Positions 4,894 to 27,490 of a stretch of 32,547 nucleotides of DNA are shown here, piece by piece (the stretch's first letter is position 1; each line of letters opens with the position of its first letter). This DNA comes from a virus: positions 1 to 32,547 of IMG/VR virus record IMGVR_UViG_3300035204_002067. One strand, given 5' to 3'. The position numbers and the translations under genes were made by a program. Under the pieces are notes generated by a model. The model was not told where the DNA came from and searched no databases. It was given only the letters and a program-made list of their open reading frames with translations.

Positions 4894-4900
4894 ACCCTAA

Positions 4901-8239: not shown

Positions 8240-8632
8240 TTAGTTAGATATGTCAATTTGGAGCAGATCGCTTTGCTGAAGTGGTATGATCGTGAACAAG
8301 ATGCTCACCGATAAGGAATTGGGAAACAAGTCTGGGTTATTTTCTGGTAGCGAAAAATCAATACTATCAATCTGAATATAGGGTAAATAGATCTGTGTCT
8401 GCTGGCGTATTCGGCCTGCGATCGTAGAATAGGTGTCGGGGCCGTTATTTTCGAACAAATACGACGTAATGCCCACTCCAAATTCCGGCATCATTATGCG
8501 CTCCCCGGGGCTTGTCAAAACAAGCATCTTAAGGTTTTGTTTAGCCAGTTCGTTATATGTGGTGTTAAGATCGTAAGGTCCAAAAACGTTACTTACAACC
8601 AAGGGTAGCTTCGGTGATAGTCCTGATGCCAT
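8240..8632 (-). CDS. gp25: Baseplate wedge protein, T4 gp25-like
   Basis: A 130-residue protein, matching T4 gp25 (132). The GPW/gp25 family pattern is clear: NELAKQNLKMLVLTSPGER, MMPEFGVGITSYLFE (the conserved PEFG segment), then IAGRIRQQTQIYLPYIQI and a C-terminal SVSILFTIIP strand. gp25 sits in the inner baseplate and, with gp6, is part of the wedge core that nucleates sheath assembly; homologues occur in contractile injection systems generally. The ATG is preceded by a strong AGGAGGA ribosome binding site located inside the end of the 1832-residue gene, so this small protein is probably translated efficiently. Confidence 0.96.
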   Translation of the reverse strand: MASGLSPKLPLVVSNVFGPYDLNTTYNELAKQNLKMLVLTSPGERIMMPEFGVGITSYLFENNGPDTYSTIAGRIRQQTQIYLPYIQIDSIDFSLPENNPDLFPNSLSVSILFTIIPLQQSDLLQIDISN

Positions 8633-8638: not shown

Positions 8639-8645
8639 TCCTCCT
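8639..8645 (-). promoter_or_regulatory. Strong ribosome binding site for the gp25-like gene
   Basis: On the minus strand AGGAGGA is followed by 6-8 bases and then the ATG at 8632. The site overlaps the TAG stop of the preceding 1832-residue gene, so translation of gp25 can restart independently. Confidence 0.75.
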
Positions 8646-11600
8646 ATTCCTCTGACTCAACATAGGGCGGGCGCACGCTCTGCGGAGTCTGTGCTTCTTC
8701 GGTTTCAGGGTCTTCTGTGGCCGAGGTGTCGTCGTCGCACGCGGTCGCATCTTCTCCTTCAGCATTAACATTCCCCGATCCAAAATTAACACCCACATCA
8801 ATGTTCGCTTGCTGTGTGTCAAAGTTAATTAGTGACAGCAACAGATAAATGAGCCCCAAAGGCGTGGGAGGAATCATCATCATCCCCATTCCAGTTCCAA
8901 GGAAGTCCACCCCGTCTTGATTAATGCGGGGGAAGAAATTCTCCGGAGGCTCGAGGAGTTCAAATGGATTGTCTTCGCCCAACGTGGGATTTTCTATCAG
9001 CCACTGCATCAGGCACAATAACGCTGTGAATAAATCTGCGCCGGTGGCTCCGGGGGCGAACGGGGCTGTGGGATTCTCGTCAACGCTGGGCAAATCCACC
9101 TGCCTCATTTGGGATTTTATCATATTGAAAGCCTCTCCGGTGCCCAGCTTAATAAACTTAGATATAACCACATGGGGGTCAATCAACTGAATAACACCTT
9201 TCAAGATATCAATGGGTGTTTTGATGAGCATCTGTATGATAAAGTCGCGCGCCATTGCCTCGGGATCAATATCGGTATCATTCTGCAGAGCTGCCTGTCG
9301 TGAGGCGCCGCGAGTGAGATCCGGGAGCTGGTTGTAGCTGTCATGATTGGCAATCGTCGTATTTAGGATCTCCAACACGCGGTTCTTAGTAGAGCGCATT
9401 GCTTTTCGGATATCACTAAAGTAGTGGTTTGTGAGGTAGAAGTTATGAATGATGGGAAGTATTCCGATGATTTCTTGATCGAATACGGTCGTGAACCAGG
9501 TTTGGTATTCCGGCTTGGCCAAGATGCGCCCAACCTCTTCGGCGCTAAGCTCTATAGATTGGGGCGTCGCAGGCGTTAGGTCTTCTTCTTCCGGATTTTG
9601 AGATTCCCACCCAAAGAGTTTGAAAGCCACCATATTGGCCGTACGGCTTTGTGCGTCATCAATCGCGGGCTGACTTTCGGATGGGGGTGTCGGGCCGCCG
9701 AGGAGAGCCTCTTCATACTGGCCGGCAGCCGGGTTTCCAATGCGATTCACATAGTCGTTGGCTACAAACCAGAATTCATAACGAATTTTGGGAACCTCTG
9801 CGAACCCACTGGGAAAGGATAATAAAGGGGCAGCCGGACCTGATTCTTCAAGGCCAGGATACTCAGGGTGAGTGTGTGGTGCATATGGCGCCGAGTGATT
9901 AGACATACTAGTGTCATTGTTCTGGTGTACAGTGAAGTCTCCGCCGCCGACATGCATATGTTGGTGTTCATCCGTCCCCAGCGTAGTTTGTTCTTGGTAA
10001 TCTATTTCAGGCTCTTCAAAGGATTCCAGGCTTTTAAGAATTATAAGCCCATCTTGATTTCCGAGACCTATGCGAAGCTGTTCTAGAGCGCGTGAGCGCT
10101 GGGCAGCGTTCTCAGAAGATAGATCGTTCACGTCGGCTCCATCCATCAGCACCGCAGGCATTGAGGCTAAGAAAATCTCTTCCATACTTTTTTGGTTAAC
10201 AACTGGGAGTGATTTAGCAATTGCATTGGACAGAGGGCCTGGCGCACTAGTGGTTCCCATAGAAGTCTGGATTCTATAGACTGCGACAAAGGAAACAATA
10301 TCGTTAAAGGTTTTTATAATGGAATTGGGGGCAACCGTCGTTGGTTGGCCTTCAACTACGAATACTGTTCCAATTGGAAATACGACCTCCCCTTCAGCAT
10401 CGGTAACTCCTCCAGCCGCTATCACGTTCGGGCGGGTCATCATTCGATTAAAGATGGTGACCATAGCCTCCTTAAGTTCTAAGATTTTGTCGTCTTGATT
10501 AGCTCTTTCAAAATAACTCTGTATGGAACTGTTCACTTGCGCGCGCATATACGAAACAATAAACTCCTTACCAAACAGCTCATCTAATTGAACCGCGGCA
10601 AAAACGAAAATATTCTTTATCACAAATTCAGCAACATGTACTTGAACCAGAAGCAAAAACATTCCAAATTTAATCACCTCGCGCATTCGCTCGCGAGAGG
10701 TAGAGGGGTTGTTATTACAAGCCTCTTCAAGATATTCCTCCTGCATTTGCTTGAAAATACCCGAGACATCCAAAAGGTCAGCCACATCATCTGCAGCACA
10801 GTTCGCGTTATCATGGAAAAAATTAAGAGACTGCAGTGTCGCTGCGTCAAAAATACCATTATTAATATAGTAATTGAAAATTTGATCGACTATGACCCCA
10901 TAGGCAAAGGGAAAATATTTGCGTTGGGCATTCGTATTATTAATGTCATAGCCGGGAGCGCTTGTTGCTGCAGCCACAAAGGGGTCCATAGTATAGGAAA
11001 TAAGGCCGCCCTGCTCGGTCCCTTCGATATCCACCCTAAATAATTCTTCTGTAGCCTCTGTGAACAAGGCGCCTAATTCAAACGTGGGCGATCGGGGGGG
11101 AGCCGTAACGTTATAGGGGGGATACTCAATATCAATATACTGCTTTTCTAAAGCACTAAAGCGGGGAAACGTAAATTCAATATGACTATCTGGAGATCCG
11201 TCGAGGCGGTACCTCTTAAAGTGATTTTGAATTATAAAGGTCTGGTTTGACATCTCTTGGGTCATCTGAGTCAGCTGACTTTCTGCCACTACAAGCCTGT
11301 CTTCTAGTCGCCTGCGCGCTGCTTGCGAAATAGAACTTCCTGCTAGCTGACTCTCGACTTGACTAATGTATGCCTCTAAACTGTCTACTCTGGCGAAGCG
11401 CTCTGTTCCTGACACATAATCGGATTTGGCGATATTGATATAATCGGCAAAAGCATCATAGAATTGTTGATTAAATCGATAAGTATTAACCGCAGGGCCA
11501 GCGCCGCCGGTTGTAATGGCACTCATCTTGTCTTGTACATTCTGCAGGGCATCCTGAACTTCGGGGTTGCCTAAGATATCTATAATTATATCAATGGCTT

Positions 11601-14142
11601 CTGCAGCATCCCTGATCCCCGGGGCCAGCAAATTGGGCGTATCCACAATACAAGTTTCAAGCGCCTGATAAATCCCGCTCGGGTCCTCTGAGAGTTCTTT
11701 GAGTGCATCGGCAATGGCGGTGATAGCCTCCGAATCCGGTTCAGGTAACTCTGGATAGTCAGATGCTTCTGGGTTTGTCTTTAATATTGTACTGTAAGCG
11801 GACTCTCCCGAGCCTTTGCCTGCGCCACTGCGGCCATCAGCGCGGCTGAGAACGGGCTCTAACAAGACATTCTTGATAGAATCTGTGGAATAAATGAACT
11901 GCATCTCAACAATTTCGACCATGGTGCTTAGAGTCTCGGGGATCAACCGAGTCATCACCGGATCATTAATATAATTCTCAGCATCTGGACAGTCAAAATT
12001 AAACACTGGCGGCGATTGATCGAAGCCGTTCTCTATGATGTCTAAGAGATCTTCGATGTTCTGTTTTTCCTCATCACCCAGCGCGTCCAAATCCAAACAG
12101 ATATTATCCTGATTCAATAGGGAGAGGTCGGTCAGGATTTCATTACACAAGTCGCTTACATCTACAACGTTCCCAAGCAGGGTCCAAAATTCAATAACAG
12201 GAGTCGCCTGCACAAGCTTAGTAGAAATGTTGGTATCAGAATAATCTAAATTAAAATCTATGACACGATCAATCAGAGCCTCGGAAGCACTCTGCGGGTC
12301 CATCAAAAGCACACAAATATCAATAGAGCTTAAAATGGCCGAAACGTCTTGGAGATATTGATATATCTCGTCTGGGGACATTCCCAGCATATTAGCTAGA
12401 TCGGCCAGAGCATTGTTATCGTCGTTACCATATCCAAAAGGATTCTGGCCAGCGAGGGGGTCTAGGAAATTATTCTTTATCAAATCCGCGATATCCACGG
12501 CACCAAAATCATTGGCACGGGGATTGTTAATGTTGCAAACTTCTTGCAGCTGCTCTGTTAGTTTTTTAATGATGTTCATCAACGCTGTGGTGAGGCCATT
12601 GAGAATGGCATCCAAAACCATCTTTCCAATATCTCCTTTGATTTTGAAAAGCTCAAATTTCCCCAAATCCATTGCGGGGCGCTCATTCAACTCTTCTTCT
12701 AGAGTGTTGCCTACAATATCCGCGATGCGAGCTAATTCAAGATTCGCACCAAAAGTTAAGCAAATCAGTGCTTCTTTGGCCAAAGCCTTAAGACCAATTT
12801 GTTCTAAAATACGATCAACCTGCGATCCTTCTTGCAGTAAGCCCATACCCCCAGTCTGCAAGACCCGCGAAATGGTTGTGGCAACATCCACCCCATTTTT
12901 AAGTTTTTTCTTCTTTTCCTCTTGATACACTTGTTCGTAAAGTTCAGGATTTTTGGCCACCTCATTTTTAAGCTGTGCCAGCTCCTCGTTGGTGAGTGCC
13001 TTAATCCCCTGCTCAAGCTCATCTGTATCATTAACATCGATGAGACCTAGGCGGATGGCTTCTTTTTCAAGCGCGCTTTGGTTGCTATTATTCCGATCAT
13101 TGGATGTGGGAAAACTAAAGAAATCCCCACTTTGCATTTCGCCCTGTATTTGACTTGGCAGTGTCTGACTGAGGAAATCAAACATAGGGAATTGGGTGCC
13201 GGCAGCGCTGTGGTCATTGGCCTTCTGGACCAGCTCCTCGTAGTGTCGGAGCATCTTCAATGTAATTTGATCGCTAAAAATCTTGCGATACTTGATCATC
13301 GTAAAATAACCAACCTTGAAGAAATCTGCAGCCAAAGCATCAGCTGCGAAGTACACGATACCATTGAGAGCGATATCCGGGGGAACTAGGCCCAAAGGAT
13401 CAGGAGGAGGTGCGGGTGCTGTGTGATTGGGGTTCGGACCGGTACGATGTCCGAAATACAAAGTCAATTGATCACCCTCAGTGGCCGTAAAAGAGCCTCC
13501 AATAATACTCTCTATATCAAGGGCTGTACCAGTTATAATGTCGGCCCAGACGTCATTGACTGTCTTAGCAAGAGAAGGAAAATTTAAGCCCCCTATAGGC
13601 ACGGCGCCGTTATAATTGTCTTTTTGGCTTGAAAAGCTTGTCATCAACTCTGTAAAAGTAGAAATAGGATTGAAGGCCGTGTCGAGGGGCATCTGAGTGT
13701 AGGAGATTACTTCGGAGCCAATATTCTGCTGGGAGTTGAAAAACTCTAGGTTTGTTTGAAAATCGGGCAACTTCCTTTCCCGCTTCCACTCGTTTCTCAT
13801 TTGATATAGGGTGCGACCCACGTCCAGCTTCGTAATTACAAACTTATAAGCAGATGGAGGCTTTGTGTCGAAGCCAGCATTTTCAAAAGAGAGTCCGCTC
13901 TGGAGGGTGATGCGTAACTCCTCATAGTTCGTATTGTCTCCATCAAAAGATGAGTCCTCCATGTTTCGATAAAACTCGGGAAAATAGTGGGTGATATAGA
14001 TATCCAAAGCATCATTCAAGATGGACGAGTTCGAGCGGGTGGAACGCACACGCAACTTTAGCCGACTAATATTACCCTCCTCAAAGGGAATATTGGCAGG
14101 CCGGGCGGGGTATTCGTTATGAAGGTTAACTTGGGCTGGCAT
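8644..14142 (-). CDS. Very large virion/baseplate protein of unknown fold
   Basis: An 1832-residue protein that I do not recognise as a named family. It lies between a spike-like gene and gp25, so a baseplate or tail-associated structural role is the natural inference. Visible parts: an N-terminal region with FEEGNISRLKLRVRSTRS; long helical stretches around residues 330-560 with charged segments; a likely coiled coil near 914-962 (ISQVESQLAG to VAESQLTQMTQEM); a histidine-rich patch near 1388-1428 (DEHQHMHVGGG and APHTHPEYPG); a hydrophobic segment near the C-terminus (GLIYLLLSLI); and a very acidic tail. No signal peptide is present and no catalytic motif was found. The start ATG is two bases from the stop of the 336-residue gene and lacks an obvious Shine-Dalgarno sequence, suggesting coupled translation. 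Candidates include an outer wedge (gp7/gp10-like) or a baseplate-attached arm; neither can be shown from sequence. Confidence 0.8.
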   Translation of the reverse strand: MPAQVNLHNEYPARPANIPFEEGNISRLKLRVRSTRSNSSILNDALDIYITHYFPEFYRNMEDSSFDGDNTNYEELRITLQSGLSFENAGFDTKPPSAYKFVITKLDVGRTLYQMRNEWKRERKLPDFQTNLEFFNSQQNIGSEVISYTQMPLDTAFNPISTFTELMTSFSSQKDNYNGAVPIGGLNFPSLAKTVNDVWADIITGTALDIESIIGGSFTATEGDQLTLYFGHRTGPNPNHTAPAPPPDPLGLVPPDIALNGIVYFAADALAADFFKVGYFTMIKYRKIFSDQITLKMLRHYEELVQKANDHSAAGTQFPMFDFLSQTLPSQIQGEMQSGDFFSFPTSNDRNNSNQSALEKEAIRLGLIDVNDTDELEQGIKALTNEELAQLKNEVAKNPELYEQVYQEEKKKKLKNGVDVATTISRVLQTGGMGLLQEGSQVDRILEQIGLKALAKEALICLTFGANLELARIADIVGNTLEEELNERPAMDLGKFELFKIKGDIGKMVLDAILNGLTTALMNIIKKLTEQLQEVCNINNPRANDFGAVDIADLIKNNFLDPLAGQNPFGYGNDDNNALADLANMLGMSPDEIYQYLQDVSAILSSIDICVLLMDPQSASEALIDRVIDFNLDYSDTNISTKLVQATPVIEFWTLLGNVVDVSDLCNEILTDLSLLNQDNICLDLDALGDEEKQNIEDLLDIIENGFDQSPPVFNFDCPDAENYINDPVMTRLIPETLSTMVEIVEMQFIYSTDSIKNVLLEPVLSRADGRSGAGKGSGESAYSTILKTNPEASDYPELPEPDSEAITAIADALKELSEDPSGIYQALETCIVDTPNLLAPGIRDAAEAIDIIIDILGNPEVQDALQNVQDKMSAITTGGAGPAVNTYRFNQQFYDAFADYINIAKSDYVSGTERFARVDSLEAYISQVESQLAGSSISQAARRRLEDRLVVAESQLTQMTQEMSNQTFIIQNHFKRYRLDGSPDSHIEFTFPRFSALEKQYIDIEYPPYNVTAPPRSPTFELGALFTEATEELFRVDIEGTEQGGLISYTMDPFVAAATSAPGYDINNTNAQRKYFPFAYGVIVDQIFNYYINNGIFDAATLQSLNFFHDNANCAADDVADLLDVSGIFKQMQEEYLEEACNNNPSTSRERMREVIKFGMFLLLVQVHVAEFVIKNIFVFAAVQLDELFGKEFIVSYMRAQVNSSIQSYFERANQDDKILELKEAMVTIFNRMMTRPNVIAAGGVTDAEGEVVFPIGTVFVVEGQPTTVAPNSIIKTFNDIVSFVAVYRIQTSMGTTSAPGPLSNAIAKSLPVVNQKSMEEIFLASMPAVLMDGADVNDLSSENAAQRSRALEQLRIGLGNQDGLIILKSLESFEEPEIDYQEQTTLGTDEHQHMHVGGGDFTVHQNNDTSMSNHSAPYAPHTHPEYPGLEESGPAAPLLSFPSGFAEVPKIRYEFWFVANDYVNRIGNPAAGQYEEALLGGPTPPSESQPAIDDAQSRTANMVAFKLFGWESQNPEEEDLTPATPQSIELSAEEVGRILAKPEYQTWFTTVFDQEIIGILPIIHNFYLTNHYFSDIRKAMRSTKNRVLEILNTTIANHDSYNQLPDLTRGASRQAALQNDTDIDPEAMARDFIIQMLIKTPIDILKGVIQLIDPHVVISKFIKLGTGEAFNMIKSQMRQVDLPSVDENPTAPFAPGATGADLFTALLCLMQWLIENPTLGEDNPFELLEPPENFFPRINQDGVDFLGTGMGMMMIPPTPLGLIYLLLSLINFDTQQANIDVGVNFGSGNVNAEGEDATACDDDTSATEDPETEEAQTPQSVRPPYVESEE

Positions 14143-14143: not shown

Positions 14144-15154
14144 TTAATTCGTATTATTGTAGCGGCTCAGAATATATTGACTCTTTCCGTCTTTGGTTGC
14201 TGTCGAACCGGCTGGGGCCTCCAAATAATTAGTCTGTACAGTAGTTAGCTTTTGCATAGATGTGTTGAGTTGCAATTGAACGTTTGTAATTTTGTTTATC
14301 AGTGTCTCGATACCAGTGGGCAGAATTCCTGTAAAATCAGGAGCGGTCAGAGAGCCAAAGAAAGGCGAGTGGTGGGTGTGCTTAAGCATAGCTTGTGTCA
14401 TTTTACGATCTTCTTCAATAAAGTTATCAAAGAGGTCCCGGAGGTCGTGGATCGCTTCAATGATAGCCTTCAAACATTCCTTAAGGTTGTCGCCCTTAAC
14501 CATTGGCTGCAGGCCCTTATCATCATTCAAGGCTATCAGGTCAATGCCGTATCCTCCGACAAAAGTGTTAGGAAGTGGGGCGCCCTGAGAATTTGCCGCA
14601 TCTGTACGGGTCACGAGCTTGATGTTCTCGCGGCCAATAAGTCGCACAGTGTCTGCTTTAACAGCGACTGTGCTTCTCGGGATGTCTGGACTTGTATTTC
14701 CCACACTGCCGGCTGCGAGTCCGAAATAACCATCAGGATCTGATTTTTGGGAAATGTAGATGCGCGCTGCATCGAGTCGAAAGTTAGGGTCGGCATTCAC
14801 ATAATCGCCGGCTTTTGTGTGGGAAGCTCCACGATAACCTAGCCGGCCGGTAACAATGTCAATGGATGCGCAATGCGTGTTTTGTTTTCCCCCAAATCCC
14901 GAAAAGATATTACTGGGCCTATCGAGGCCCAAAACAATGGAAGAATTGCCCTGAGCGATGGCGCGCTCGTTGGAGGTAGATATATAGCCCGGGGTGTCAA
15001 AGTTTTGCTTAAACCCATCATCAAAACCCAGGTACCTGGCCTTACCTTGAGGTGGCCGAAGGTCAAAGTTCTTCCGATCATCGTCGGACATTAAATTCAG
15101 ATCTATAGCGTCGGTAACCTTTTTAATGACTGAATCAAGTGATATTCTAGGCAT
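14144..15154 (-). CDS. Putative baseplate spike-associated virion protein
   Basis: A 336-residue protein without a confident family. The middle contains short beta-rich units such as TVAVKADTVRLIGRENIKL and YGIDLIALNDDKGL, like the repetitive strands of phage spike beta-helices. DAARIYISQKSDPDGYFGL precedes them. A KHTHHSPFFG motif near residue 265 resembles the HxH motifs that bind metal in several phage spike and fibre proteins. The C-terminal 70 residues are helical (LINKITNVQLQLNTSMQKL). The gene overlaps the M15 spike-like gene by 8 bases, and a GGGGA motif precedes its ATG. Position directly after two gp5-like hydrolase genes suggests it supplies or caps the spike, a role that the C-terminal beta-helix of gp5 plays in T4. 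This is inference; structure prediction would be needed. Confidence 0.7.
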   Translation of the reverse strand: MPRISLDSVIKKVTDAIDLNLMSDDDRKNFDLRPPQGKARYLGFDDGFKQNFDTPGYISTSNERAIAQGNSSIVLGLDRPSNIFSGFGGKQNTHCASIDIVTGRLGYRGASHTKAGDYVNADPNFRLDAARIYISQKSDPDGYFGLAAGSVGNTSPDIPRSTVAVKADTVRLIGRENIKLVTRTDAANSQGAPLPNTFVGGYGIDLIALNDDKGLQPMVKGDNLKECLKAIIEAIHDLRDLFDNFIEEDRKMTQAMLKHTHHSPFFGSLTAPDFTGILPTGIETLINKITNVQLQLNTSMQKLTTVQTNYLEAPAGSTATKDGKSQYILSRYNNTN

Positions 15155-16388
15155 AATCTTTCCCCGTAATGGCTCCAGTGCGTTCTAGGGCAACGGCATC
15201 GTCATAATTCGTCTTTCTCCAACCTGAAACGCGGCCGTTTATCTCTATATGAAAATGGCCACCGCTGGTTGCGGCACCAGTCTGCGCCGAAGAATACTCA
15301 TTTTTAAAGAGGACTTTGGCATTCGTCCCTACTGAGTATTCATACAGAAGCTTGTTTACAGCTGTTTTGTTCAACGTAGTCGTAGGATGGATGGTGATGT
15401 CCATTGCGTCGCCGTAGCAGTGCCTGCTTCGGCCGGAGCAGGGCGGGCAATGATGATAGGCATCGTTGCCACCGGTGATCCTTGTGTAGTTGATAGAAGG
15501 TATCTCATCAATTACATCCTGCAAAAAGCTTTTGGCAAACTTTACAAAGTCAGCCGTAAGATCTCCTCCATTGTCGAGTTGTGGACCGTCATCAGAGTCG
15601 CCGTCGCTTTTGACCTTCTCTCGAATGGGTTTCCCCACCATCCAAGCGCGAAGGTCCTCGGCGTTGGGGCCCGGGGTATATCCAGTCACGGCGTCGCGGC
15701 AAATATTCTGCGCAGTAGCCGGGCGGGGGGCTGGACCACCACCACCAGGGGTTGAGCGTGGTCGGCGCTCTCCACGGCCTTGACCGGCGGGGAGAGAGTT
15801 GCCTCCCCGATGGGCGCTTTGATTTCCCGTCGGATTAATACCATGGAAAGCCACGGTCTTCCCGACGCGGATTATTCGAGGGTCAGCAAAATTATCCGTA
15901 TTACTAAACTTTACGGTCACAACGCTTCCGAGTTCTGCTTTTCTTGCTTCCAGCATACCCACACTATTGTCCATATAAACATCATAATAAGTGGTAATGA
16001 TTGGGTCATCAAAACCATAGGGCACAGGACGGCACTCTAACTCAGGAATATAAACTTTATACACCTTTCGCATTCCGCCCTTCCACCATTCGCTAATTGC
16101 ACGGCCGGCGCGTTGTGCTGCATTTCTTTTAACATAAGCGTCCAACACCGCTTCACGGTCGCCGGCTGCGAAGGCTTCTTTATCAGATACCTGCACAACT
16201 ATTCCGCGGAACTCATCAACTCCTTCTAACGAATGAGTAGCATATACGCTGTCAATTCCTGCGCGGAGGAAATCGCCCGTGCCGGAACGCCGCCGATCCG
16301 TAGAATTACCGGTTCTTCGATCTTCAATCGGATTAAGAAATCCATAAGAAAGATCCTTAATCGCTAGTTCGTCATTATTATTGGGCAC
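15147..16388 (-). CDS. gp5-like spike module fused to an M15-type peptidoglycan peptidase
   Basis: A 413-residue protein starting at GTG; the start is supported by a GAGGAA site 5 bases upstream and by alignment with its neighbour (PNNNDELAIKDLSYGF versus PDSDDQLALKDLSYGF). Residues 1-194 are paralogous to the same region of the next protein and look like an OB-fold-containing gp5-type N-terminus (RGIVVQV, YKVYIPELECRP, LGSVVTVKFSN, DPRIIRVG). A Gly/Pro/Arg-rich linker follows (about 195-225). The C-terminal domain carries the M15 zinc signature: HxxGxAxD at H323 to D330 and HFH at 378-380, so H323, D330 and H380 are the likely zinc ligands. Such enzymes cut peptide cross-links or stems of peptidoglycan. 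It probably acts locally at the baseplate tip during entry. It overlaps the 336-residue gene by 8 bases. Confidence 0.85.
   Translation of the reverse strand: MPNNNDELAIKDLSYGFLNPIEDRRTGNSTDRRRSGTGDFLRAGIDSVYATHSLEGVDEFRGIVVQVSDKEAFAAGDREAVLDAYVKRNAAQRAGRAISEWWKGGMRKVYKVYIPELECRPVPYGFDDPIITTYYDVYMDNSVGMLEARKAELGSVVTVKFSNTDNFADPRIIRVGKTVAFHGINPTGNQSAHRGGNSLPAGQGRGERRPRSTPGGGGPAPRPATAQNICRDAVTGYTPGPNAEDLRAWMVGKPIREKVKSDGDSDDGPQLDNGGDLTADFVKFAKSFLQDVIDEIPSINYTRITGGNDAYHHCPPCSGRSRHCYGDAMDITIHPTTTLNKTAVNKLLYEYSVGTNAKVLFKNEYSSAQTGAATSGGHFHIEINGRVSGWRKTNYDDAVALERTGAITGKDYA
15808..15848. repeat. 41-base near-identical tract, copy 1 (domain junction of M15 gene)
   Basis: This 41-base stretch matches 17184-17224 with a single difference (T at 15839 versus C at 17215, giving Ile versus Val). 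It encodes the last residues of the shared N-terminal module (HGINPTGNQSAHR), immediately before the linker where the two proteins stop resembling each other. All synonymous positions are identical. Confidence 0.9.
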
Positions 16389-16456
16389 TGTTCTTCCTCG
16401 ACACCTCTGGGGTGGTTGCTGATATTCTGATAGTGAGCTTTATTTTATGCACAGTA
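16389..16456. other. Largest intergenic gap, possible promoter for the M15 spike gene
   Basis: These 68 bases separate the M23 and M15 genes. On the minus strand there is an AT-rich run, CATAAAATAAAG, near 16441-16451, loosely like a T4-type late promoter (TATAAATA) but not a match, and then the GAGGAA ribosome binding site at 16394-16399. No convincing terminator hairpin is visible. It is the only sizeable gap in the window, so a local promoter is possible. Confidence 0.3.
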
Positions 16457-17764
16457 TTAAACCCTCCGCGGGGTGTGTTGTGGCGACCCGCGTCGATAGT
16501 GAGTCTGAGCCGGGGGGTTAGTAGCTCCATCATTGATCCAAATCCAGTCGGCAGGATAGAAATCAGCCGCGTTGAGTTTGGCCGAGGATGGAGTGTTTTG
16601 GGTGATTTGCTGGGTGCCCACCGCCCAATGAAGATGTTCGCCTGCGCGTCCGATGGGGTCGGTATGCCCCGTGTTTCCTACATAACCAACAAGTTGACCT
16701 TTTCTAACCATATCGCCGGCTCGCAAATGCGAAGGCATATCCATATGGATATATAATACATAATACCCCTCAACAGTCTTATATTGAATTTGATTACCGG
16801 CGGTCGATGGCCCGTGTGATCGACACAGGCTTGTAGGACTCGCGACGACTTGCCCATCCTGCACCGCATAAAGGGGGGTCCCCGTACGAGCGCTTAAATC
16901 AATCGCATAGTGTGCTCCCCCCGACACGCGGTACCAGCCGCCAGAGGCGCGCAATCTAGTTGGGTGCCCCTCAAATCCCTCACTGGGTTTTATAGGCAAA
17001 ACCCAATTACTTACGGGATTAGATGGCCAGTCGGCAGCTGTCCAGTCATCTTGATGGAGCTGAGTTCCTGTTTGTTGGTCACTACCATTGACAGTACTGG
17101 TGGAGGGGCATCTCATATCTGTGCCCGCGGCTGGAGGAGGGGATGAGCCAGGCGTGCCCGAAGCGGGCCGGGAGGAATTGCTGCGATGGGCGCTTTGATT
17201 TCCCGTCGGATTAACACCATGGAACGCAATCTGCTCACCTATGCGGATTATCCGCGGATCGCTAAAATTGGCCACGTTGCCAAATTTGACCGTTACAAGG
17301 CTTCCAAGTTTAGGCTCGCTTTTAAAAATACCGGTGACACTATCATCCAAATAAACGTTATAATAGGTGGTGATTATGGGGTCTCCAAAACTGGTAGGCG
17401 CCGGACGACACTCTAGTTCCGGAATATACACCTTATAGACTGGCCTATTAGGGCCCTCAAGCACCGACGTCGCTGCAGCCGCAGCGCGCTGGGCCCAATT
17501 CCTTTTGGCATACTCCTCCAGTACAGCCTCTCGGGGGTCGGCAGCAATGCCGGTTTTTTCGGCCACTTGTACTACTATCCCACGGAACTCTTCAACACCC
17601 TTAAGAGCATGACGCGCATATTCCGTTCCGATGAAGGCGCCTAGGCGCGACATGGTATCTGTCCGTCGAAGGTCGGTGGAATTGCCTGTTCGTCCGTCAG
17701 CTACGGGATTCATAAATCCGTAGGAGAGATCCTTGAGAGCTAGCTGATCATCACTATCAGGCAT
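16457..17764 (-). CDS. gp5-like spike module fused to an M23 (LytM-type) endopeptidase
   Basis: A 435-residue protein. Its first ~195 residues are paralogous to the M15 protein (shared strings include KDLSYGF, RTGNSTD, YKVYIPELECRP, DPIITTYY, NPTGNQSAHR) and resemble the gp5 OB-fold entry. A Ser/Pro-rich linker follows. The C-terminal domain is a zinc endopeptidase of the M23/LytM family: GGAHYAIDL gives H285 and D289, YIHMD gives H340, and EHLHW gives H377 and H379; the zinc set would be H285, D289 and H379. Other family marks are TGTPLYAVQDGQVV and GQLVGYVGNTG. M23 enzymes cleave peptide cross-bridges, so this is a tail-borne wall-penetration enzyme rather than, or as well as, a lysis endolysin. 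No signal peptide or holin-like partner lies nearby. A GAGGAA site at the end of the upstream gene precedes the ATG. Confidence 0.9.
   Translation of the reverse strand: MPDSDDQLALKDLSYGFMNPVADGRTGNSTDLRRTDTMSRLGAFIGTEYARHALKGVEEFRGIVVQVAEKTGIAADPREAVLEEYAKRNWAQRAAAAATSVLEGPNRPVYKVYIPELECRPAPTSFGDPIITTYYNVYLDDSVTGIFKSEPKLGSLVTVKFGNVANFSDPRIIRIGEQIAFHGVNPTGNQSAHRSNSSRPASGTPGSSPPPAAGTDMRCPSTSTVNGSDQQTGTQLHQDDWTAADWPSNPVSNWVLPIKPSEGFEGHPTRLRASGGWYRVSGGAHYAIDLSARTGTPLYAVQDGQVVASPTSLCRSHGPSTAGNQIQYKTVEGYYVLYIHMDMPSHLRAGDMVRKGQLVGYVGNTGHTDPIGRAGEHLHWAVGTQQITQNTPSSAKLNAADFYPADWIWINDGATNPPAQTHYRRGSPQHTPRRV
17184..17224. repeat. 41-base near-identical tract, copy 2 (domain junction of M23 gene)
   Basis: Partner of 15808-15848, in the same orientation and at the same place in the reading frame, 1376 bases away. 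One mismatch in 41 bases, while the flanking paralogous DNA has many synonymous and non-synonymous differences. Confidence 0.9.
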
Positions 17765-17767: not shown

Positions 17768-18067
17768 CTATTTTTCCTCGTTCAAGAGATCAAAGAGCTG
17801 CTCTTTGTCGTCGTCAGTTAGTCCAATCTGGTTGGTTTTTTGGCGCTGGAGGATGCTGGCTAACTTGACCATCTGCTCGTTAGAGCGTTGCAGGTTTTCT
17901 ACAAACTTGGCCGCAATAGGGCCCATTTCTCGCCGGTCTGTGGCGGAGGCTGCCATATCGGCCATGACATCAATAAGTAGCGTCTTGGCCATTGCACGAT
18001 CTTCTCGTATATTTTTCGTAGTTTCCTCTACGTAATCTTCAAGATTTAAATTTGACCGCTTTGCCAT
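17768..18067 (-). CDS. Small helical phage protein, unknown function
   Basis: A 99-residue protein, predicted by eye to be almost wholly alpha-helical and rich in charged residues (LEDYVEETTKNIREDRAMAK, then FVENLQRSNEQMVKLASILQ). No cysteines, membrane segment or known motif is visible. It overlaps the end of the sigma-factor gene by 22 bases and is three bases before the M23 spike gene, so it is part of the same transcript and most likely expressed late. It could be a small assembly factor or chaperone for the baseplate genes that follow, but nothing in the sequence shows that. Confidence 0.75.
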   Translation of the reverse strand: MAKRSNLNLEDYVEETTKNIREDRAMAKTLLIDVMADMAASATDRREMGPIAAKFVENLQRSNEQMVKLASILQRQKTNQIGLTDDDKEQLFDLLNEEK

Positions 18068-18753
18068 TTGCCTTTAAACACCCTATAACGCTTCCTTAAT
18101 TTATTCAGATTATTAACAACCTGTTTGGTATTAAGGCCTGTGATCTCTCTCAGGTATAAGTAAATAGCTTTTTTGTTAAAAATTTCTATTGTATCGGCAG
18201 AGTCCAAAAGGATTCGAACTGCCATCAAAACCTTTTTCTCATTTTCTTTTAGCATAAACGAGTCCCACGTATCGATTTCTTGGTAGAGAGACGTCCAAAA
18301 TTCGATTTCGGATCGTTTCTGAAGATATGTGGGCTCCGTGGATACAAGATCCTCCTCCAGCTGGTTTAACATATCTTCCATAAAAATCTCGGTTTGATTC
18401 CGCTTCTGCGTTCTCTTGACTTTATGAATAAACCAGTTTTTGGTGACCACGGAGAAATAGGAGAAAGCTTTTGATCCCTTGTTGGGGTCATACTTGTTAA
18501 GAATGGTGGTGAGCCACACCTTACAATCAGCTTTAAGATAATCTATGTTTGGCAATGTTGTAAAGCGATAGGTATAGATAATTTTATCCACCATCTGATC
18601 GAAAGCTGGTTGTATATATTCTTCGTATAGCTTAGATCGAAGGTCCCTATCTTGAGTAAGAGCGTATTTTACGATAGCATCTTCATGGACCTGGGTGAAA
18701 TAGTGATTCTTTTTACTGCGCGATCTCTTCTTGCGCTGCTTCTTCGGCTGCAT
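18046..18753 (-). CDS. gp55: Late-transcription sigma factor, T4 gp55-like
   Basis: A 235-residue protein when started at the ATG at 18753; an in-frame ATG at 18762 directly abuts the GGAGG site and is too close to it, while 18753 has a 9-base spacing. The N-terminus is very basic (KKQRKKRSRSKK). Around residues 79-117 is a sigma region 2 pattern, VWLTTILNKYDPNKGSKAF then SYFSVVTKNWFIHKVKR, which matches the -10 recognition and core-binding region of gp55-type factors. gp55 directs host RNA polymerase to short late promoters with no -35 element. This version is longer than T4 gp55 (185) and ends with a helical segment (AIYLYLREITGLNTKQVV then NNLNKLRKRY) that looks like a helix-turn-helix. 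It overlaps the upstream membrane protein gene by about 40 bases. Confidence 0.9.
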   Translation of the reverse strand: MQPKKQRKKRSRSKKNHYFTQVHEDAIVKYALTQDRDLRSKLYEEYIQPAFDQMVDKIIYTYRFTTLPNIDYLKADCKVWLTTILNKYDPNKGSKAFSYFSVVTKNWFIHKVKRTQKRNQTEIFMEDMLNQLEEDLVSTEPTYLQKRSEIEFWTSLYQEIDTWDSFMLKENEKKVLMAVRILLDSADTIEIFNKKAIYLYLREITGLNTKQVVNNLNKLRKRYRVFKGKWQSGQI

Positions 18754-19048
18754 TAAGCTCATCCTCCAATTCCTGGTCTAACGTATATTCAAAGATGTCC
18801 CTAAAGTTTTCCATCTCCTCGCTCACATCTTGGATCTTTAGCACCAATTCTTGAATGATCGGCTCTCCATGATAAGAGTCCATTCCATATACAGAGTTAA
18901 CAAATATCTGGAATGCTTTGGTGGTAAAGAAAAGGTCTCCTAGGGCCTGTGAAATAAATATAAACTTTCGCAAAATTCGAATAATATACCAAATAAGCGC
19001 CGCATTGAGGCCCAGGGATATTAAGCCAATTAAATCAAAAATTGTCAT
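18713..19048 (-). CDS. Small membrane-anchored phage protein
   Basis: A 111-residue protein with one N-terminal hydrophobic helix (about residues 4-25, LIGLISLGLNAALIWYII) followed by basic residues RILRK, so the N-terminus is probably outside and the rest cytoplasmic. The remainder is helical and becomes strongly acidic (DQELEDELNAAEEAAQEE). There is no enzyme motif. It is too long and has too few membrane spans for a typical holin call to be safe. The ATG overlaps the stop of the zinc-ribbon gene (ATGA), and the 3' end overlaps the sigma gene, so the three are translationally linked. Function unknown. Confidence 0.75.
   Translation of the reverse strand: MTIFDLIGLISLGLNAALIWYIIRILRKFIFISQALGDLFFTTKAFQIFVNSVYGMDSYHGEPIIQELVLKIQDVSEEMENFRDIFEYTLDQELEDELNAAEEAAQEEIAQ
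18763..18767 (-). promoter_or_regulatory. Ribosome binding site that decides the sigma factor start
   Basis: GGAGG on the minus strand, inside the end of the membrane-protein gene. It touches the first in-frame ATG (18762) but lies 9 bases from the second (18753), favouring the second as the real start. Confidence 0.65.
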
Positions 19049-19514: not shown

Positions 19515-19520
19515 CTCCTT
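19515..19520 (-). promoter_or_regulatory. Strong ribosome binding site for the 68-residue protein
   Basis: AAGGAG on the minus strand, 6 bases before the ATG at 19508 and overlapping the stop of the RmlB gene. It marks a change from weakly initiated, overlapping sugar genes to a strongly initiated small-gene block. Confidence 0.75.
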
Positions 19521-20469
19521 ACCAATAAAATTTATTCTTATAGAATTCTACGATACTTTTGATCTCTGTGTCAAAAACTCGCGAGGGTTCCCACCCCAGA
19601 CTGCGCAATTTGGTGTCATCTAGTGAGTAGCGCACATCTTGACCAGGGCGTACATACCCCAGGTCCACATAATTCTCCCACTCTGTCCCACTACTATAAT
19701 ACTCTTCTATGATTTTTTTAACTGTTTCTTTGTTCTCTTGCTCGAAACCCCCGGAAACATTGAAGATTTCGTTTTTCACGCCATTTTCAATAATAGTGAT
19801 GACTGCCGCTGCAGTATCTGCCGCGTGTAGCCAGTTGCGAACGGGAGTGCCGGCATCATGAAGACGAATCTTTTTCCCCCACTGGAGCAGCTTGACCGCC
19901 AGTGGTACCAGTTTTTCCGTATGTTGATAAATGCCATAGTTATTGGTTGGACGCAAAATAATATATTCCATTCCATATGTCCGAGCCCAGGCTTTGATAA
20001 GCATATCAGATGCAGCCTTCGACGCAGAGTAGGGATTGCTGGGGTTCATTAGATCTTCTTCGGTGTGACTTCCAGATGTGATATCTCCATATACTTCATC
20101 GGTGCTAAAGTGAAAGAAAACCGGCTGCCGGCAGATGTTCTCAGGCTTAAATCTAATGACGTCCAATAAATTTTTAACGCCGTCAACATTGGTGTGAATA
20201 AAATCAGAACTGTCTAAAATACTGTTTCCGACGTGGGTCTCTGCTGCGACATTGATAACATAATCACAATCCGGTATATATGTAACATCTGCGATGTCTT
20301 CCTTACTAAACGTAAAGTTTGCATTCTTTTCAAATTCGTCCAAAAGCGCTGGGTTGCTGGCATACGTACACTTGTCGATGCCGTAGACGCGCCATCCTTT
20401 CTCCAGGCAAGCCCTAGTAACATAGGAGCCAATAAAACCCAGGCAGCCGGTTATTGTTAGTAGTTTCAT
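19519..20469 (-). CDS. rmlB: dTDP-glucose 4,6-dehydratase-like SDR enzyme
   Basis: A 316-residue extended short-chain dehydrogenase. The N-terminal NAD-binding motif is G8xxG11xxG14 (GCLGFIGS), preceded by a hydrophobic strand. Residues T123-D124-E125 in FSTDEVYGD and the catalytic pair Y147/K151 in YSASK match RmlB, where the Asp-Glu pair performs the 4,6-dehydration. RPTNNYGIYQHTEKLVP and the C-terminal PGQDVRYSLDDTKLRSLGW are also typical of RmlB. The usual reaction converts dTDP-glucose to dTDP-4-keto-6-deoxyglucose, the branch point for many deoxy and amino sugars. It is somewhat shorter than bacterial RmlB (about 350). The ATG overlaps the stop of the phosphodiesterase gene by 4 bases. 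Other nucleotide sugars as substrate cannot be excluded. Confidence 0.88.
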   Translation of the reverse strand: MKLLTITGCLGFIGSYVTRACLEKGWRVYGIDKCTYASNPALLDEFEKNANFTFSKEDIADVTYIPDCDYVINVAAETHVGNSILDSSDFIHTNVDGVKNLLDVIRFKPENICRQPVFFHFSTDEVYGDITSGSHTEEDLMNPSNPYSASKAASDMLIKAWARTYGMEYIILRPTNNYGIYQHTEKLVPLAVKLLQWGKKIRLHDAGTPVRNWLHAADTAAAVITIIENGVKNEIFNVSGGFEQENKETVKKIIEEYYSSGTEWENYVDLGYVRPGQDVRYSLDDTKLRSLGWEPSRVFDTEIKSIVEFYKNKFYW

Positions 20470-20900
20470 AATAATCCTACAAAATCACTACATATGCCGC
20501 CAACATCCTCAGCCCTATAGTGTTCTTCTGTCTCCTCTAGACTTTTACACACTATAACACTATGCGTGTTCGCGGGGATGCCGGGGTACACCCAAATATG
20601 GCCATGGCTCGTTACTGTGTAGTCATCCTCTTGGTGCCAAAAACAGTGGATATCATTTTTAAGCATATGCGTTAGGGCTGCTAGATTTTTTGCGTGGCAC
20701 CATAGCCGGGGGTCCTGAAGGAATCCTATCTCAACTTCATATTGGGGCTTGTCATGACCCAGGAGCCACTTATGATTCTCAAACCAGACGTCAATCTCCA
20801 CCTCGTACCCCTCTTTGAGTGCATTTAAAATATAGGGCGGCGAGTTCTCGTCTTCGGGCCTCAAGCCCCGGGTATTGCCTCTATGAGAGATTAAACGCAT
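20466..20900 (-). CDS. Compact glycerophosphodiester phosphodiesterase-like protein
   Basis: A 144-residue protein with the catalytic signature of the GDPD / PLC-like TIM-barrel family in its first 50 residues: H6-R7-G (ISHRGN), E18-N19-S20, E35-I-D37 (YEVEIDVW) and H49-D50 (LGHD). These correspond to the catalytic histidine pair and the metal-binding acidic residues. Family members hydrolyse glycerophosphodiesters; versions inside polysaccharide clusters may act on phosphodiester-linked substituents. The length is only about 60% of a standard GDPD (around 240), so the barrel is trimmed. It overlaps the sulfotransferase upstream by 10 bases and RmlB downstream by 4, fixing it in the sugar operon. 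Confidence 0.75.
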   Translation of the reverse strand: MRLISHRGNTRGLRPEDENSPPYILNALKEGYEVEIDVWFENHKWLLGHDKPQYEVEIGFLQDPRLWCHAKNLAALTHMLKNDIHCFWHQEDDYTVTSHGHIWVYPGIPANTHSVIVCKSLEETEEHYRAEDVGGICSDFVGLL

Positions 20901-21526
20901 AATTTATATCCATTCTCCAATAACCATACTCCATACTCTAATTCTAGTAGACTAATTTGTGTTGTATCCAACGTTTCGCGATAAGAGCCAATCTTGCCAC
21001 CATTAGTAACATGATGAGATGTCATAAGATCAAATTTATGATGAGTGAGTTTAGATGAATATTTTTTGTCTTTTAGGCTCTCAGCCTTTTCGATGACCTT
21101 TTCAATATCACACTCGACCGCCAAAGGCAAACTCTCTAGCATTTCTTTTGCTACCTCTACTGGGCGCGCCTTATATTCCTCATAACAGAACAGATAATCA
21201 CACGGATTGCACTGATTATACCACGTCATATTTCTTGCAGCAATCTTTAGAACGTCTCCGCCGGCAAACTCCGGATCTTTCCGAATATTAGACGCCACAG
21301 AATCTCTTATATCTCTTCTTACGTTTATAAGAAAATTACTAGTTGTTCGAACGTGGACTTTTACTAAGTCGATCAAGCTATCTGTCTCCTTCTCACAGGC
21401 AATATAGCCCATTTTGCGAGAGCCAACCCATAGTTGAAGATTGTGTTCCTCCTGCAATGCAAACTTAAGCAAGTTGAAACACAGGGTACTGCCAGCCTGA
21501 GGCATTCCCCCTACTTGAATTTTCAT
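20891..21526 (-). CDS. Sulfotransferase-like P-loop protein (copy 1)
   Basis: A 211-residue protein with the start placed at the ATG at 21526, which overlaps the nucleotidyltransferase stop as ATGA; the longer frame would begin with GTG at 21574 deep in the upstream gene. Residues 6-17 (GGMPQAGSTLCF) form a phosphosulfate-binding loop like the 5'-PSB loop of PAPS sulfotransferases. Residues 67-79 (INVRRDIRDSVAS) match the 3'-phosphate-binding RxxxDxxxS segment. GGKIGSYRETL near 176-186 resembles the C-terminal RKGxxGxW-like motif. The expected reaction is transfer of sulfate from PAPS to a hydroxyl or amino group, here probably on a glycan. No PAPS-making gene lies in the window, so the donor would come from the host. 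Confidence 0.72.
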   Translation of the reverse strand: MKIQVGGMPQAGSTLCFNLLKFALQEEHNLQLWVGSRKMGYIACEKETDSLIDLVKVHVRTTSNFLINVRRDIRDSVASNIRKDPEFAGGDVLKIAARNMTWYNQCNPCDYLFCYEEYKARPVEVAKEMLESLPLAVECDIEKVIEKAESLKDKKYSSKLTHHKFDLMTSHHVTNGGKIGSYRETLDTTQISLLELEYGVWLLENGYKLCV

Positions 21527-22236
21527 CTTTTTTTCAAGTACCTTTCGAGATCTTCTGGGGTGCCTATTCCCCACATCTCATGAACATAGAAAGGAACCAA
21601 GGTTTTGCCATCGGCTATCAATTCATTATACACTGGGGCAATGTAAAACTCGTTGTTTACACGAATATTACTCTCGATCATCTGCTTAGCGTATTTAACA
21701 AAGTCTGAGCCGCGGCGATACCAATAAATACCGCAAGTGGCAATGTCGGAGATAGGCTTCTTTTCAGCAACCTCAGTAATATATCCTCTAGAGTTTGTTC
21801 GAACAAAGGACCACTTAGGATGCACCGCATTAAAAGTAAAAACCATCGAATCTACGTTAGACAAATTTTTTAACAACGTAAAATTCTTGGGCTCGTACTC
21901 GACAACCTGATCTGAATTTGCGATTAACAAGTCTTCATCGTTATCAATATATTCTTCTGCCAACAAAGCTGTACAGGCGGCGCCTTCGGTAAGTTTGTCG
22001 ACAACGACGTGCTTAAAATTACCATTTGTAATTCTATCTAAGGTGTCTAAAAGGCCAGCATATTTTTCTATATGCTCGGCTCGGACCAAAAAAATATATT
22101 CGCAATCGAAATCTAAGTTTTCGACCACTGTCTGTATCATTGGTTTGCCTTTAACGTCAATTAATGGTTTTGGAAACGTATAGCCCTCTTTGGCAAAGCG
22201 GCTTCCTTCACCCGCCATTGGGATTAAAATTTTCAT
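21523..22236 (-). CDS. Sugar-phosphate nucleotidyltransferase
   Basis: A 237-residue GT-A-like nucleotidyltransferase. The N-terminal signature is G9-E-G-S-R13 in IPMAGEGSRF, with K23 in FPKPLIDVKGKPMI, the standard nucleotide-binding loop and catalytic lysine region. D109 in LLIANSDQVV is the likely metal ligand, and TEGAACTALLA (83-93) matches the base-binding loop. The family joins a sugar 1-phosphate with an NTP to give an NDP-sugar. The length fits RmlA-like or GlmU N-terminal domains without extra C-terminal domains; the nucleotide and sugar cannot be read from the sequence. Paired with an adjacent HAD phosphatase (29-base overlap), an arrangement also seen in pathways for phosphorylated sugars such as heptoses. 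It might feed RmlB if the product is dTDP-glucose. Confidence 0.88.
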   Translation of the reverse strand: MKILIPMAGEGSRFAKEGYTFPKPLIDVKGKPMIQTVVENLDFDCEYIFLVRAEHIEKYAGLLDTLDRITNGNFKHVVVDKLTEGAACTALLAEEYIDNDEDLLIANSDQVVEYEPKNFTLLKNLSNVDSMVFTFNAVHPKWSFVRTNSRGYITEVAEKKPISDIATCGIYWYRRGSDFVKYAKQMIESNIRVNNEFYIAPVYNELIADGKTLVPFYVHEMWGIGTPEDLERYLKKR

Positions 22237-22843
22237 CTATAAATTCCTTTACTCTGTGGATTGTGACTTCTGTTGCGTCTTTGACTTCCAGTATAGCGCA
22301 ACCAGCTTCTTTGGCTGCCCGCAACCCCTTGGGAGAATCCTCCACTATTATCGCATTTTCTGGCGCACATTTATACTGTTTTAAAATTTTTAAATACCCT
22401 TCAGGATGGGGCTTAGGATTCTCTACATCCTGGTTTGTCACCAAAGTATCTATACTGGAAAGTATTCCTGTTTTTTCTAGCATCAAGGATGCTGTTTCTC
22501 TTATACTATTTGTATAACAGCACACTACAACCCCTTGATCCTTAAGCCACTCAATAAGTTGTATTTTTTCTGAACTCACTTCGCATTGTCTTTCAATAAT
22601 GTGCATTGTATTGCTCTGCTTTAGTTCATAGATGGCAGTATGTGCTTCCGCAGAAACAACACCCATCTCTGTCAGTTTCTGTAATTTTACTTTTGTGGGG
22701 CTCCCATTAAATACGGAATAATGGTCTTCCCGGGAGATCTCATAGTTACTAACCTCCTTCAGTGCCATGTTGAGAGCATCGCGATGCCAATCACAAGCAT
22801 CCACCAAAACCCCATCCATATCAAATATTATCATCTGTAACAT
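22208..22843 (-). CDS. HAD-superfamily phosphatase
   Basis: A 211-residue protein with start at the ATG at 22843, which shares a base with the upstream stop (TAATG); a slightly longer frame begins at TTG. All HAD motifs are present: D8 and D10 in FDMDGVLVD, T111-N-S in CYTNS, K144 in NPKPHPEGY and E168-D169 in VEDSPKG. The cap is an alpha-helical C1 type as in beta-phosphoglucomutase and GmhB-like or sugar phosphatases. The expected activity is removal of phosphate from a sugar or phosphomutase chemistry. It overlaps the nucleotidyltransferase by 29 bases, so the two probably act in successive steps of making an activated sugar. Confidence 0.88.
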   Translation of the reverse strand: MLQMIIFDMDGVLVDACDWHRDALNMALKEVSNYEISREDHYSVFNGSPTKVKLQKLTEMGVVSAEAHTAIYELKQSNTMHIIERQCEVSSEKIQLIEWLKDQGVVVCCYTNSIRETASLMLEKTGILSSIDTLVTNQDVENPKPHPEGYLKILKQYKCAPENAIIVEDSPKGLRAAKEAGCAILEVKDATEVTIHRVKEFIDENFNPNGG

Positions 22844-23595
22844 TAGCAAGTTCCTCTCTCTTCTGGGTCTATCCCGTATTGGGAAAATATCTCACGTAGC
22901 TCTCCAGGATATTGGTCCACGGTCCATTTTCCTTTAAATATTGCGGTGGCAATCACGGGCCATACATAAGAGTCCCAATGGTGACGGCCTCTTCTCTTCT
23001 CATTTCCTACGAAACTATAATAACATTTATAATTTCGATACCTACAGAAGTGCTGCGCCTGCGCTTCAAACTCCCAGATATTAAGTCCCGTGTGATGAGT
23101 CGCGATTTCCAAAAAGGTGGCCACCTTCCAGATAGACGATTGTATTGCCACTATATAGTCGAAACCCGGGTATATCTTCCGAAGAGAAGGGTTTTTTGTG
23201 TGTGGGGTATCAAACTTAGTATCCTTAGCGGCACCCCCCTTAAGTAGCTTAATGTAGTCGATCTCTTCTTCCTGTGTGACGTCCCAAATCGACCTTAGTA
23301 GGTCCACCTTAACATCATCGTAGAGAATCATATCTTCATGTTGGAAAATACAATATTCTGTCTCTATCTGCTCAAGGCAGAACCTAAGCCTATCGGTGTA
23401 GGGTGCCGAATCATCATAATAGACAACTTCATATTTCTCTGGAATATGAGTGGCTAAGGGGACGTCTACGCTATCAACGAAAAAATAGTATTTCTCAAAC
23501 TCTTCTGCTACGTGCTTTTCGGCACGACTAAAGAACGGCGCCCACAAGTCGGAGTAGGTGGAGTGGCTATAAACTACGAACGATATATTATTCAT
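22843..23595 (-). CDS. Putative glycosyltransferase-like protein (GT-A-type features)
   Basis: A 250-residue protein with a GT-A-like outline: an N-terminal beta strand ISFVVYSHS, a nucleotide-sugar-type region, and an acidic motif at residues 85-88 (QHED) after a hydrophobic strand, in the position of the DxD motif. Toward the end come NIWEFEAQAQ (an ED-like acceptor helix) and RRGRHHW. I cannot assign it to a numbered family. It sits in the middle of the sugar operon, overlapping its upstream neighbour by 8 bases. Transfer of a sugar to a growing glycan is the most likely role; a non-catalytic role is possible. Confidence 0.6.
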   Translation of the reverse strand: MNNISFVVYSHSTYSDLWAPFFSRAEKHVAEEFEKYYFFVDSVDVPLATHIPEKYEVVYYDDSAPYTDRLRFCLEQIETEYCIFQHEDMILYDDVKVDLLRSIWDVTQEEEIDYIKLLKGGAAKDTKFDTPHTKNPSLRKIYPGFDYIVAIQSSIWKVATFLEIATHHTGLNIWEFEAQAQHFCRYRNYKCYYSFVGNEKRRGRHHWDSYVWPVIATAIFKGKWTVDQYPGELREIFSQYGIDPEERGTC

Positions 23596-25621: not shown

Positions 25622-25623
25622 TT

Positions 25624-26322: not shown

Positions 26323-26717
26323 TCTGTTTCCTCTGCTTTCTCTAAAATATAATATTTTCGGGTGAAGACACAAGACTCAAATAGCCTCAAGCTGGCTTCG
26401 TTTTCGACCTTTACTTTGGCGACACTATCAGGATGCATCACCAACAATTGTTGAATCATAAACTTCCCTAGTCCCCGCTGCTGGTAGTCTGGACTTGTCG
26501 CGACACGAATGTCTTTATCTATTACTCCTACAAAGCCCGCAGCCTCATTGTCTACTAAACAAATATAGAAACACTCCCCATATTTTTCCATAAACCGAGC
26601 ATGATCTTCAGTCTCGATATAGTCTTGCCGAATGAAGCCCGGGCGTACCTCTATATGATTACGCAGGGTTCGAAGGAACTCCCAATACTTCGGTTCGTTT
26701 TTTACTAATTCAATCAT
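26319..26717 (-). CDS. GNAT N-acetyltransferase
   Basis: A 132-residue single-domain GNAT protein. The acetyl-CoA pyrophosphate loop is QQRGLG (79-84) in SPDYQQRGLGKFMIQQL, preceded by the strand AAGFVGVIDKDIRVAT, and followed by VKVENEASLRLFESCVF, which is the common NxxSxxLFxxxGF-like C-terminal pattern. It would transfer an acetyl or similar acyl group to an amine. The nearby DegT aminotransferase makes a natural partner: amino sugar followed by N-acetylation, as in formation of Fuc4NAc or Qui4NAc. Overlaps the GT-D-like gene by 8 bases and FkbM by 4. Confidence 0.88.
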   Translation of the reverse strand: MIELVKNEPKYWEFLRTLRNHIEVRPGFIRQDYIETEDHARFMEKYGECFYICLVDNEAAGFVGVIDKDIRVATSPDYQQRGLGKFMIQQLLVMHPDSVAKVKVENEASLRLFESCVFTRKYYILEKAEETE

Positions 26718-27489: not shown

Positions 27490-27490
27490 T

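Follow-up and report, generated by a model that had tools for sequence, protein, structure and literature searches.

A predicted gp5-type N-terminal module with exchangeable putative cell-wall enzymes in the baseplate region of uncultured phages

In gp5 of phage T4 an OB domain (residues 1–129) is followed by a lysozyme (174–339) and a beta-helix (389–575) (PMC4576200). Two-enzyme tail tips are already known. In Anabaena phage A-1(L) an endoglucanase domain and a peptidase domain, both active, belong to the hub protein gp15, and no enzyme is carried by the OB spike, gp25 (PMC10966104). At CBB_239/CBB_240 of the Rak2-like phage CBB, a gp5 N-terminal domain is combined with a lysozyme and perhaps with an M23 part, and a second lysozyme-domain gene lies next to it (PMC5259590). 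In the type VI secretion system (T6SS) of Vibrio cholerae a heterotrimeric VgrG spike has been reported, and VgrG paralogues have different C-terminal effectors (PMC8668125); T6SS effector genes are displaced sequentially (PMC5361080). Here we describe two adjacent genes, P0002 and P0001, in a 32.5-kb virus fragment from IMG/VR (record IMGVR_UViG_3300035204_002067, positions 1 to 32,547), which is called the window below. Their products share an N-terminal module (N-module) and have different C-terminal enzyme domains. They are probably tail-tip spike subunits of a T4-like contractile phage, with the enzymes held in a cassette that allows them to be swapped.

The locus resembles T4 gp5 in having an N-terminal OB domain, as predicted, followed by a wall-degrading enzyme and encoded in the baseplate region. 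It differs in that two zinc peptidases are present on two paralogues, no beta-helix follows in the same chain, and a separate gene for a 336-residue protein is found. Several wall-cutting domains on one baseplate are also a feature of A-1(L), whose OB chain 8kea_D is a structural match, although its enzymes are combined in one hub protein and not distributed over tandem OB paralogues. For CBB, the published description includes no OB paralogues in tandem whose enzymes have been exchanged (PMC5259590). The closest functional parallel is the 'evolved' VgrG of the T6SS, where several spike paralogues also carry exchangeable C-terminal enzymes; however, that is a secretion system with antibacterial effectors and immunity genes, and here the setting is a phage baseplate whose putative needle is encoded apart. 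Flavobacterium phage Immuto and Microcystis phage Mel-JY01 have the same gene order (sigma, gp33-like, spike region, gp25, gp6), but in them a single enzyme-free gene seems to join OB-like and beta-helix-like parts, and the GH19-type enzyme of Mel-JY01 is a separate gene. In the open-access literature we found no phage described as having OB-enzyme paralogues that stand in tandem at a conserved position, next to a separate gene for a putative needle.

All genes of the block lie on the minus strand. P0002 (spike gene 1, 16457–17764, 435 residues) consists of an OB-type N-module at residues 1–195 (17180–17764), a Pro/Gly/Ser-rich linker and an M23 zinc endopeptidase domain at residues 284–386. 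P0001 (spike gene 2, 15147–16388, 413 residues, GTG start) has its N-module at residues 1–195 (15804–16388), a linker and a hedgehog/MepA-like LAS (M15-like) zinc-peptidase domain at residues 233–387. The modules align without gaps over residues 1–195 at 63% identity, and full-length BLASTP aligns 236 residues at 56% identity (E 5e-84); beyond residue ~195–235 no significant similarity between the two proteins was detected. Of the 133 identical residues 57 have identical codons, and most synonymous sites differ. A sequence-only reading of the window had proposed a common N-terminus of about 195 residues and a duplication followed by catalytic-domain replacement. The alignment confirms the former, and the latter is borne out by a maximum-likelihood tree of 74 modules, in which the window modules are sisters (99/94), and by enzyme swaps on near-identical anchors elsewhere. 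The two genes also have in common an exact 31-bp tract, TTAATCCGACGGGAAATCAAAGCGCCCATCG, located at codons 184–194 of spike 1 (17184–17214) and at 15808–15838 in spike 2, that is, at the module boundary. None of 1000 codon shuffles reached 31 bp (shuffled mean 12).

Both open reading frames, and the M23 assignment with H285, D289 and H379, are as the sequence-only reading had them. More specifically, P0002 matches PF01551 at residues 284–386 (E 2.1e-18, 66.7 bits against a cut-off of 28.7), the zinc ligands lie in HYAID and HLH, and lysostaphin and LytM are among the closest proteins of solved structure. The M15 assignment of P0001 holds in part. H323 and D330 are present in SRHCYGDAMD, H378 and H380 in GGHFH, and these motifs recur in relatives; SRHxxGxAxD and GHFH are largely kept across P0001-type proteins. 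The model of residues 233–387 has an LAS fold (hedgehog N-domains Z 8.8, MepA Z 7.2). However, the C-terminus has no match in Pfam, PHROGs or NCBIfam and hence to no M15 family model (VanY, M15_3, M15_4), so that M15-like/LAS (hedgehog/MepA fold) is the better name. The invariant histidine of the HxH pair is H378 and not H380, which is Asp in L083 and L157 (L numbers denote loci of relatives). At the position of the usual M15/LAS catalytic acid P0001 and its relatives have small residues; a candidate to stand in for it is the invariant Glu of [ND]EY. The hedgehog matches in the PDB reflect a common zinc-peptidase fold, and a hedgehog signalling identity was rejected. Judged by motif, the two enzymes are both metallopeptidases, with unrelated folds.

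Residues 55–177 of P0001 form an OB barrel in an AlphaFold2 model built from a 47-row alignment (mean pLDDT 75.7). In VIA-align comparisons this region matches T4 gp5 (Z 7.5–7.8; 2z6b 7.8, 1k28 7.5), the P1 baseplate (9vzk, Z 7.9), A-1(L) (8kea_D, Z 7.5) and the spikes of PVC and Anabaena injection systems (Z 7.4–7.7). Among predicted viral structures the named matches include 'Baseplate hub + tail lysozyme' of cyanophages and 'Protein Gp5 N-terminal OB-fold domain' proteins (E 0.006–0.02); better-ranked matches are unnamed and uncultured-phage proteins (E down to 1e-11). Searches of 50,697 phage records and of 84,980 prokaryote genomes gave no match to the N-module, and neither did Pfam, PHROGs, NCBIfam or the PDB sequences. 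The best reading of the N-module is a gp5-type OB domain, the fold coming from the model and the specific kinship from the baseplate context and the fused wall enzymes. The gp5-like, OB-type N-terminus had been anticipated from the letters, as had gp5-like spike proteins, but the latter requires a correction: these are not complete gp5s. Both proteins end at or shortly after the enzyme domain, and neither chain continues into a C-terminal triple-stranded beta-helix.

The pair is no one-off, as it had first appeared, but one instance of a recurrent variable cassette, in which the number of spikes ranges from one to three and at least ten classes of enzyme occur. Scans of IMG/VR with full-length P0001 or P0002 gave no matches and the two aligned N-modules gave 18 relatives; scans with the 336-residue protein contributed the best 80 of 128 and the best 80 of 167 matches. 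After removal of loci with 336-residue proteins at least 97% identical, 58 complete loci with both borders were left. The left border is a 99-residue gene, gp33-like by position (17768–18067 in the window, 66–91% identity in the first 18 relatives), and the right border is the 336-residue gene (14144–15154), which is conserved in all relatives at about 41–75% identity. One spike is present in 48 loci, two in six, three in four and more than three in none. The interval holds spike genes alone, usually overlapping or at most 70 bp apart; in the window the stop of P0001 overlaps the next gene by 8 bp. Exceptions are L070, where a short spike has a frameshift and GDSL and VanY parts lie in downstream frames, L146, where the frame of the 336-residue gene is broken, and L198. 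In L198 an extra VanY-like gene (L198:5898–7004; SPHGTGLAMDF, AWHWEV) without a recognised N-module stands between the spike and the 336-residue gene. Wherever contigs are long enough, the synteny is sigma, 99-residue gene, spike(s), 336-residue gene, a gene of ~1800 residues, gp25 and gp6. Six records of 100–194 kb have the N-module once per genome, at this locus only. The N-module marks a large uncultured myovirus group.

Anchor and enzyme have separate histories. Between loci, N-module identity correlates with identity of the 336-residue protein (Spearman rho 0.54) and not with enzyme class (rho 0.001). L087 and L089 have modules 95% and 336-residue proteins 94% identical, with Amidase_2 in one and an unrelated domain in the other, which reads as a recent enzyme swap. 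Besides the window pair, the pairs of L096, L118 and L186 and the triplets of L138 and L196 are sisters in the tree; the array label requires 8 changes on it, at least 6 of them forced by well-supported branches. Exact tracts that codon shuffling does not explain were also found within the arrays of L138 (44 bp), L117 (32 bp) and L096 (29 bp, reached in 1 of 1000 shuffles). Such tracts point to recombination or gene conversion, and the one in the window sits exactly where the crossover of an enzyme swap is expected. A 416-bp identity in L142 was discarded as an artefact of overlapping reading frames. A different pattern is seen in L117, L142 and L145, where the anchors are position-specific orthologues (position 1, 100/98; position 2, 98/90; position 3, 91/98; the contig ends within L142, where two spikes are visible). 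Their enzymes differ at nearly every position: Amidase_2 or GDSL at the first, DUF2272, unassigned or lysozyme-like at the second, and VanY, GDSL or phosphatase-like at the third. As far as the tree of modules tells, the anchors are kept distinct through enzyme turnover.

C-terminal classes were assigned with Pfam and PHROGs on representatives and extended by phmmer; several Pfam matches (SLT, some VanY, GH19) are below the curated cut-off. The classes are VanY/M15 (15), GDSL esterase (9), lysozyme-like (phrog_90 'endolysin', 9), SLT-like (7), LAS/hedgehog-like as in P0001 (6), M23 (5), GH19-like (5), Amidase_2 (4), PF11860 muramidase (4), DUF2272 (3), T4-type phage lysozyme (2), tyrosine-phosphatase-like (1) and unassigned (5, some lysozyme-like by eye). 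All assigned C-termini are thus a wall hydrolase or a GDSL esterase, save the tyrosine-phosphatase-like one. That protein (L145:5598–6920; HCKAGTDRTG, PF13350 at the cut-off) has no obvious wall enzyme. In L069 and L072 muramidase and GDSL (and VanY) are fused in one chain, so the predicted multi-enzyme tips are reached by tandem genes and by fusion alike. The single spikes L067:4451–6985, L069:4454–6985 and L068:2–2617 have serial domains, muramidase, GDSL and then VanY or an unassigned domain, and the last domain differs between near-identical anchors.

GDSL esterases occur in 9 of the 12 multi-enzyme loci and in none of the 46 single-enzyme loci (Fisher 2e-8; hypergeometric over enzyme slots 8e-5; the P values ignore kinship). 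The nine loci form seven clusters at 60–70% identity of the 336-residue protein, i.e. neither one clade nor nine independent events. All nine also have a putative glycan-strand cutter, a PF11860 muramidase in two and a phrog_90-type lysozyme-like domain in seven. O-acetyl groups block lysozymes, and an esterase could remove them. It is plausible that the GDSL esterase strips the O-acetyl groups that hinder its putative glycan-cutting partner. Other sets would be directed at peptides only: M23 and LAS in the window, M23 and amidase in L096, and amidase, DUF2272 and VanY in L117. Note that array mates are of different class in 10 of 10 arrays; the chance probability of this is 0.15 and it was therefore not used as evidence.

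We propose that P0001 and P0002 are subunits of the central spike at the tail tip of a T4-like contractile-tailed phage. The gp5-type OB domain would dock each protein on the baseplate hub, and the C-terminal metallopeptidases would each cleave the stem peptide or cross-bridge of peptidoglycan in a different part when the tail penetrates. Between the borders formed by the gp33-like and 336-residue genes, a lineage would keep its own anchor and exchange the enzyme via recombination, and the cassette could load a second or third enzyme by anchor duplication or string several enzymes on one anchor. Several observations weigh against this proposal. OB folds are common and the structural match is not specific: IF1 scores as high as gp5 (Z 8.8, VIA-align), and in Foldseek none of the PDB matches passes E 0.001. 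The 336-residue protein has no demonstrable gp5C homology by profile comparison, and the beta structure in its model is partial. Searches of cultured phages by tblastn with the modules, the 336-residue protein and consensus sequences gave no relative of the module, and we found neither virion proteomics nor activity data for this phage group. The activity of P0001 is not certain because the usual catalytic acid is not at its normal place.

If P0001 and P0002 are spike subunits, they may be used together or one at a time. A hetero-oligomeric spike, in which tandem paralogues take distinct positions on one hub and the tip delivers two or three complementary enzymes (e.g. esterase and lysozyme), is a possibility that we hold tentatively, at somewhat below even chances. 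It would explain why the observed cassettes have at most three genes, as many as there are subunits in a gp5-type trimer, and would also account for the position-specific orthology of anchors in L117, L142 and L145 despite enzyme turnover. Slightly less favoured, and rather unlikely in our view, is that each spike is a homo-oligomer of one paralogue, with mixed virions in a burst or one gene little used, as a population-level bet. Single-spike loci dominate (48 of 58), so one enzyme suffices, and the 63% identical window anchors with their converted tract could either of them fill the same site. Simple redundancy would not be expected to keep three anchor slots apart as in those three loci, and the restriction of GDSL to the company of other enzymes suggests joint use.

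That the proteins act outside the spike, as endolysins or lysis accessories within a baseplate operon with the OB part as a wall-binding domain, is improbable and this reading was rejected. The catalytic domain types are indeed common in endolysins and several PHROGs carry that name; against this stand the gp5-type OB fold, the strict baseplate synteny and the position, which in Immuto and Mel-JY01 is occupied by a gp5-like OB gene. In addition, the largest relative (194 kb) has, far from the locus, a separate Amidase_2 gene that lacks the N-module. We likewise rejected, as very improbable indeed, a decaying second copy or an assembly artefact. The GTG start of P0001 and its missing canonical catalytic acid could be taken that way, but both frames are open for more than 410 codons with zinc motifs kept, most synonymous sites differ between the two modules, and further tandem arrays were found on independent contigs.

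In the proposed spike the needle or tip would be provided by the 336-residue protein. Its model (pLDDT 73) has a beta-rich first half and a C-terminal helical hairpin. Comparison with the gp5 beta-helix (gp5C) by hhalign gave a probability of 12.5%, for the C-terminal part only; a PDB sequence search with its profile found no match, and the structure search was dominated by helical hairpins. At the same place Immuto, Mel-JY01 and LR756508 have one enzyme-free gene, in which an OB-like region and a terminal region flank a middle segment that by eye is laid out similarly. Profile comparison of the N-module and the 336-residue protein with this OB-needle gene was not significant, and the link is one of synteny and pattern. 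We infer that gp5 may be split here, the OB-enzyme part and the needle being in separate genes.

With one anchor joined to many different enzymes, the 58 distinct loci from uncultured phages amount to a natural experiment. The results suggest tails armed as with interchangeable drill bits. If the proposed spike role is true, they show contractile-tailed phages re-arming the tail tip for hosts with different walls, and provide a phage counterpart of evolved VgrG spikes with a catalogue of about a dozen tail-tip enzyme types. The exclusive pairing of GDSL with a putative glycan cutter makes a prediction that can be tested on O-acetylated (lysozyme-resistant) walls.

Transcription of the minus strand in the window runs from the gp55-like sigma gene through the 99-residue gene, P0002, P0001, the 336-residue gene and a 1832-residue gene to gp25 and gp6. 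The late sigma factor (18046–18762; phrog_234, E 1e-5) is 81–93% identical in relatives. The 1832-residue protein (8644–14142), of unassigned function, is kept downstream of the 336-residue gene. Baseplate wedge genes follow, gp25 at 8240–8632 (PF04965, E 1.7e-11; phrog_261, 2e-18) and gp6 at 6424–8223 (phrog_219, 4e-20; 28–29% identity over the full length to Immuto and Mel-JY01). The spike genes are thus in a baseplate neighbourhood, with gp25 and gp6 downstream and the late sigma upstream, which is kept in relatives. Directly upstream of this block, ~13 kb of surface-glycan and nucleotide-sugar genes (19519–32523, minus strand) encode epimerases, a nucleotidyl transferase, a HAD phosphatase, a DegT aminotransferase, an FkbM methyltransferase, a GNAT protein, a sulfotransferase and glycosyltransferases. 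At the other end, positions 1–4900 have no open reading frame longer than 124 residues on either strand, and the remainder of the window is densely coding.

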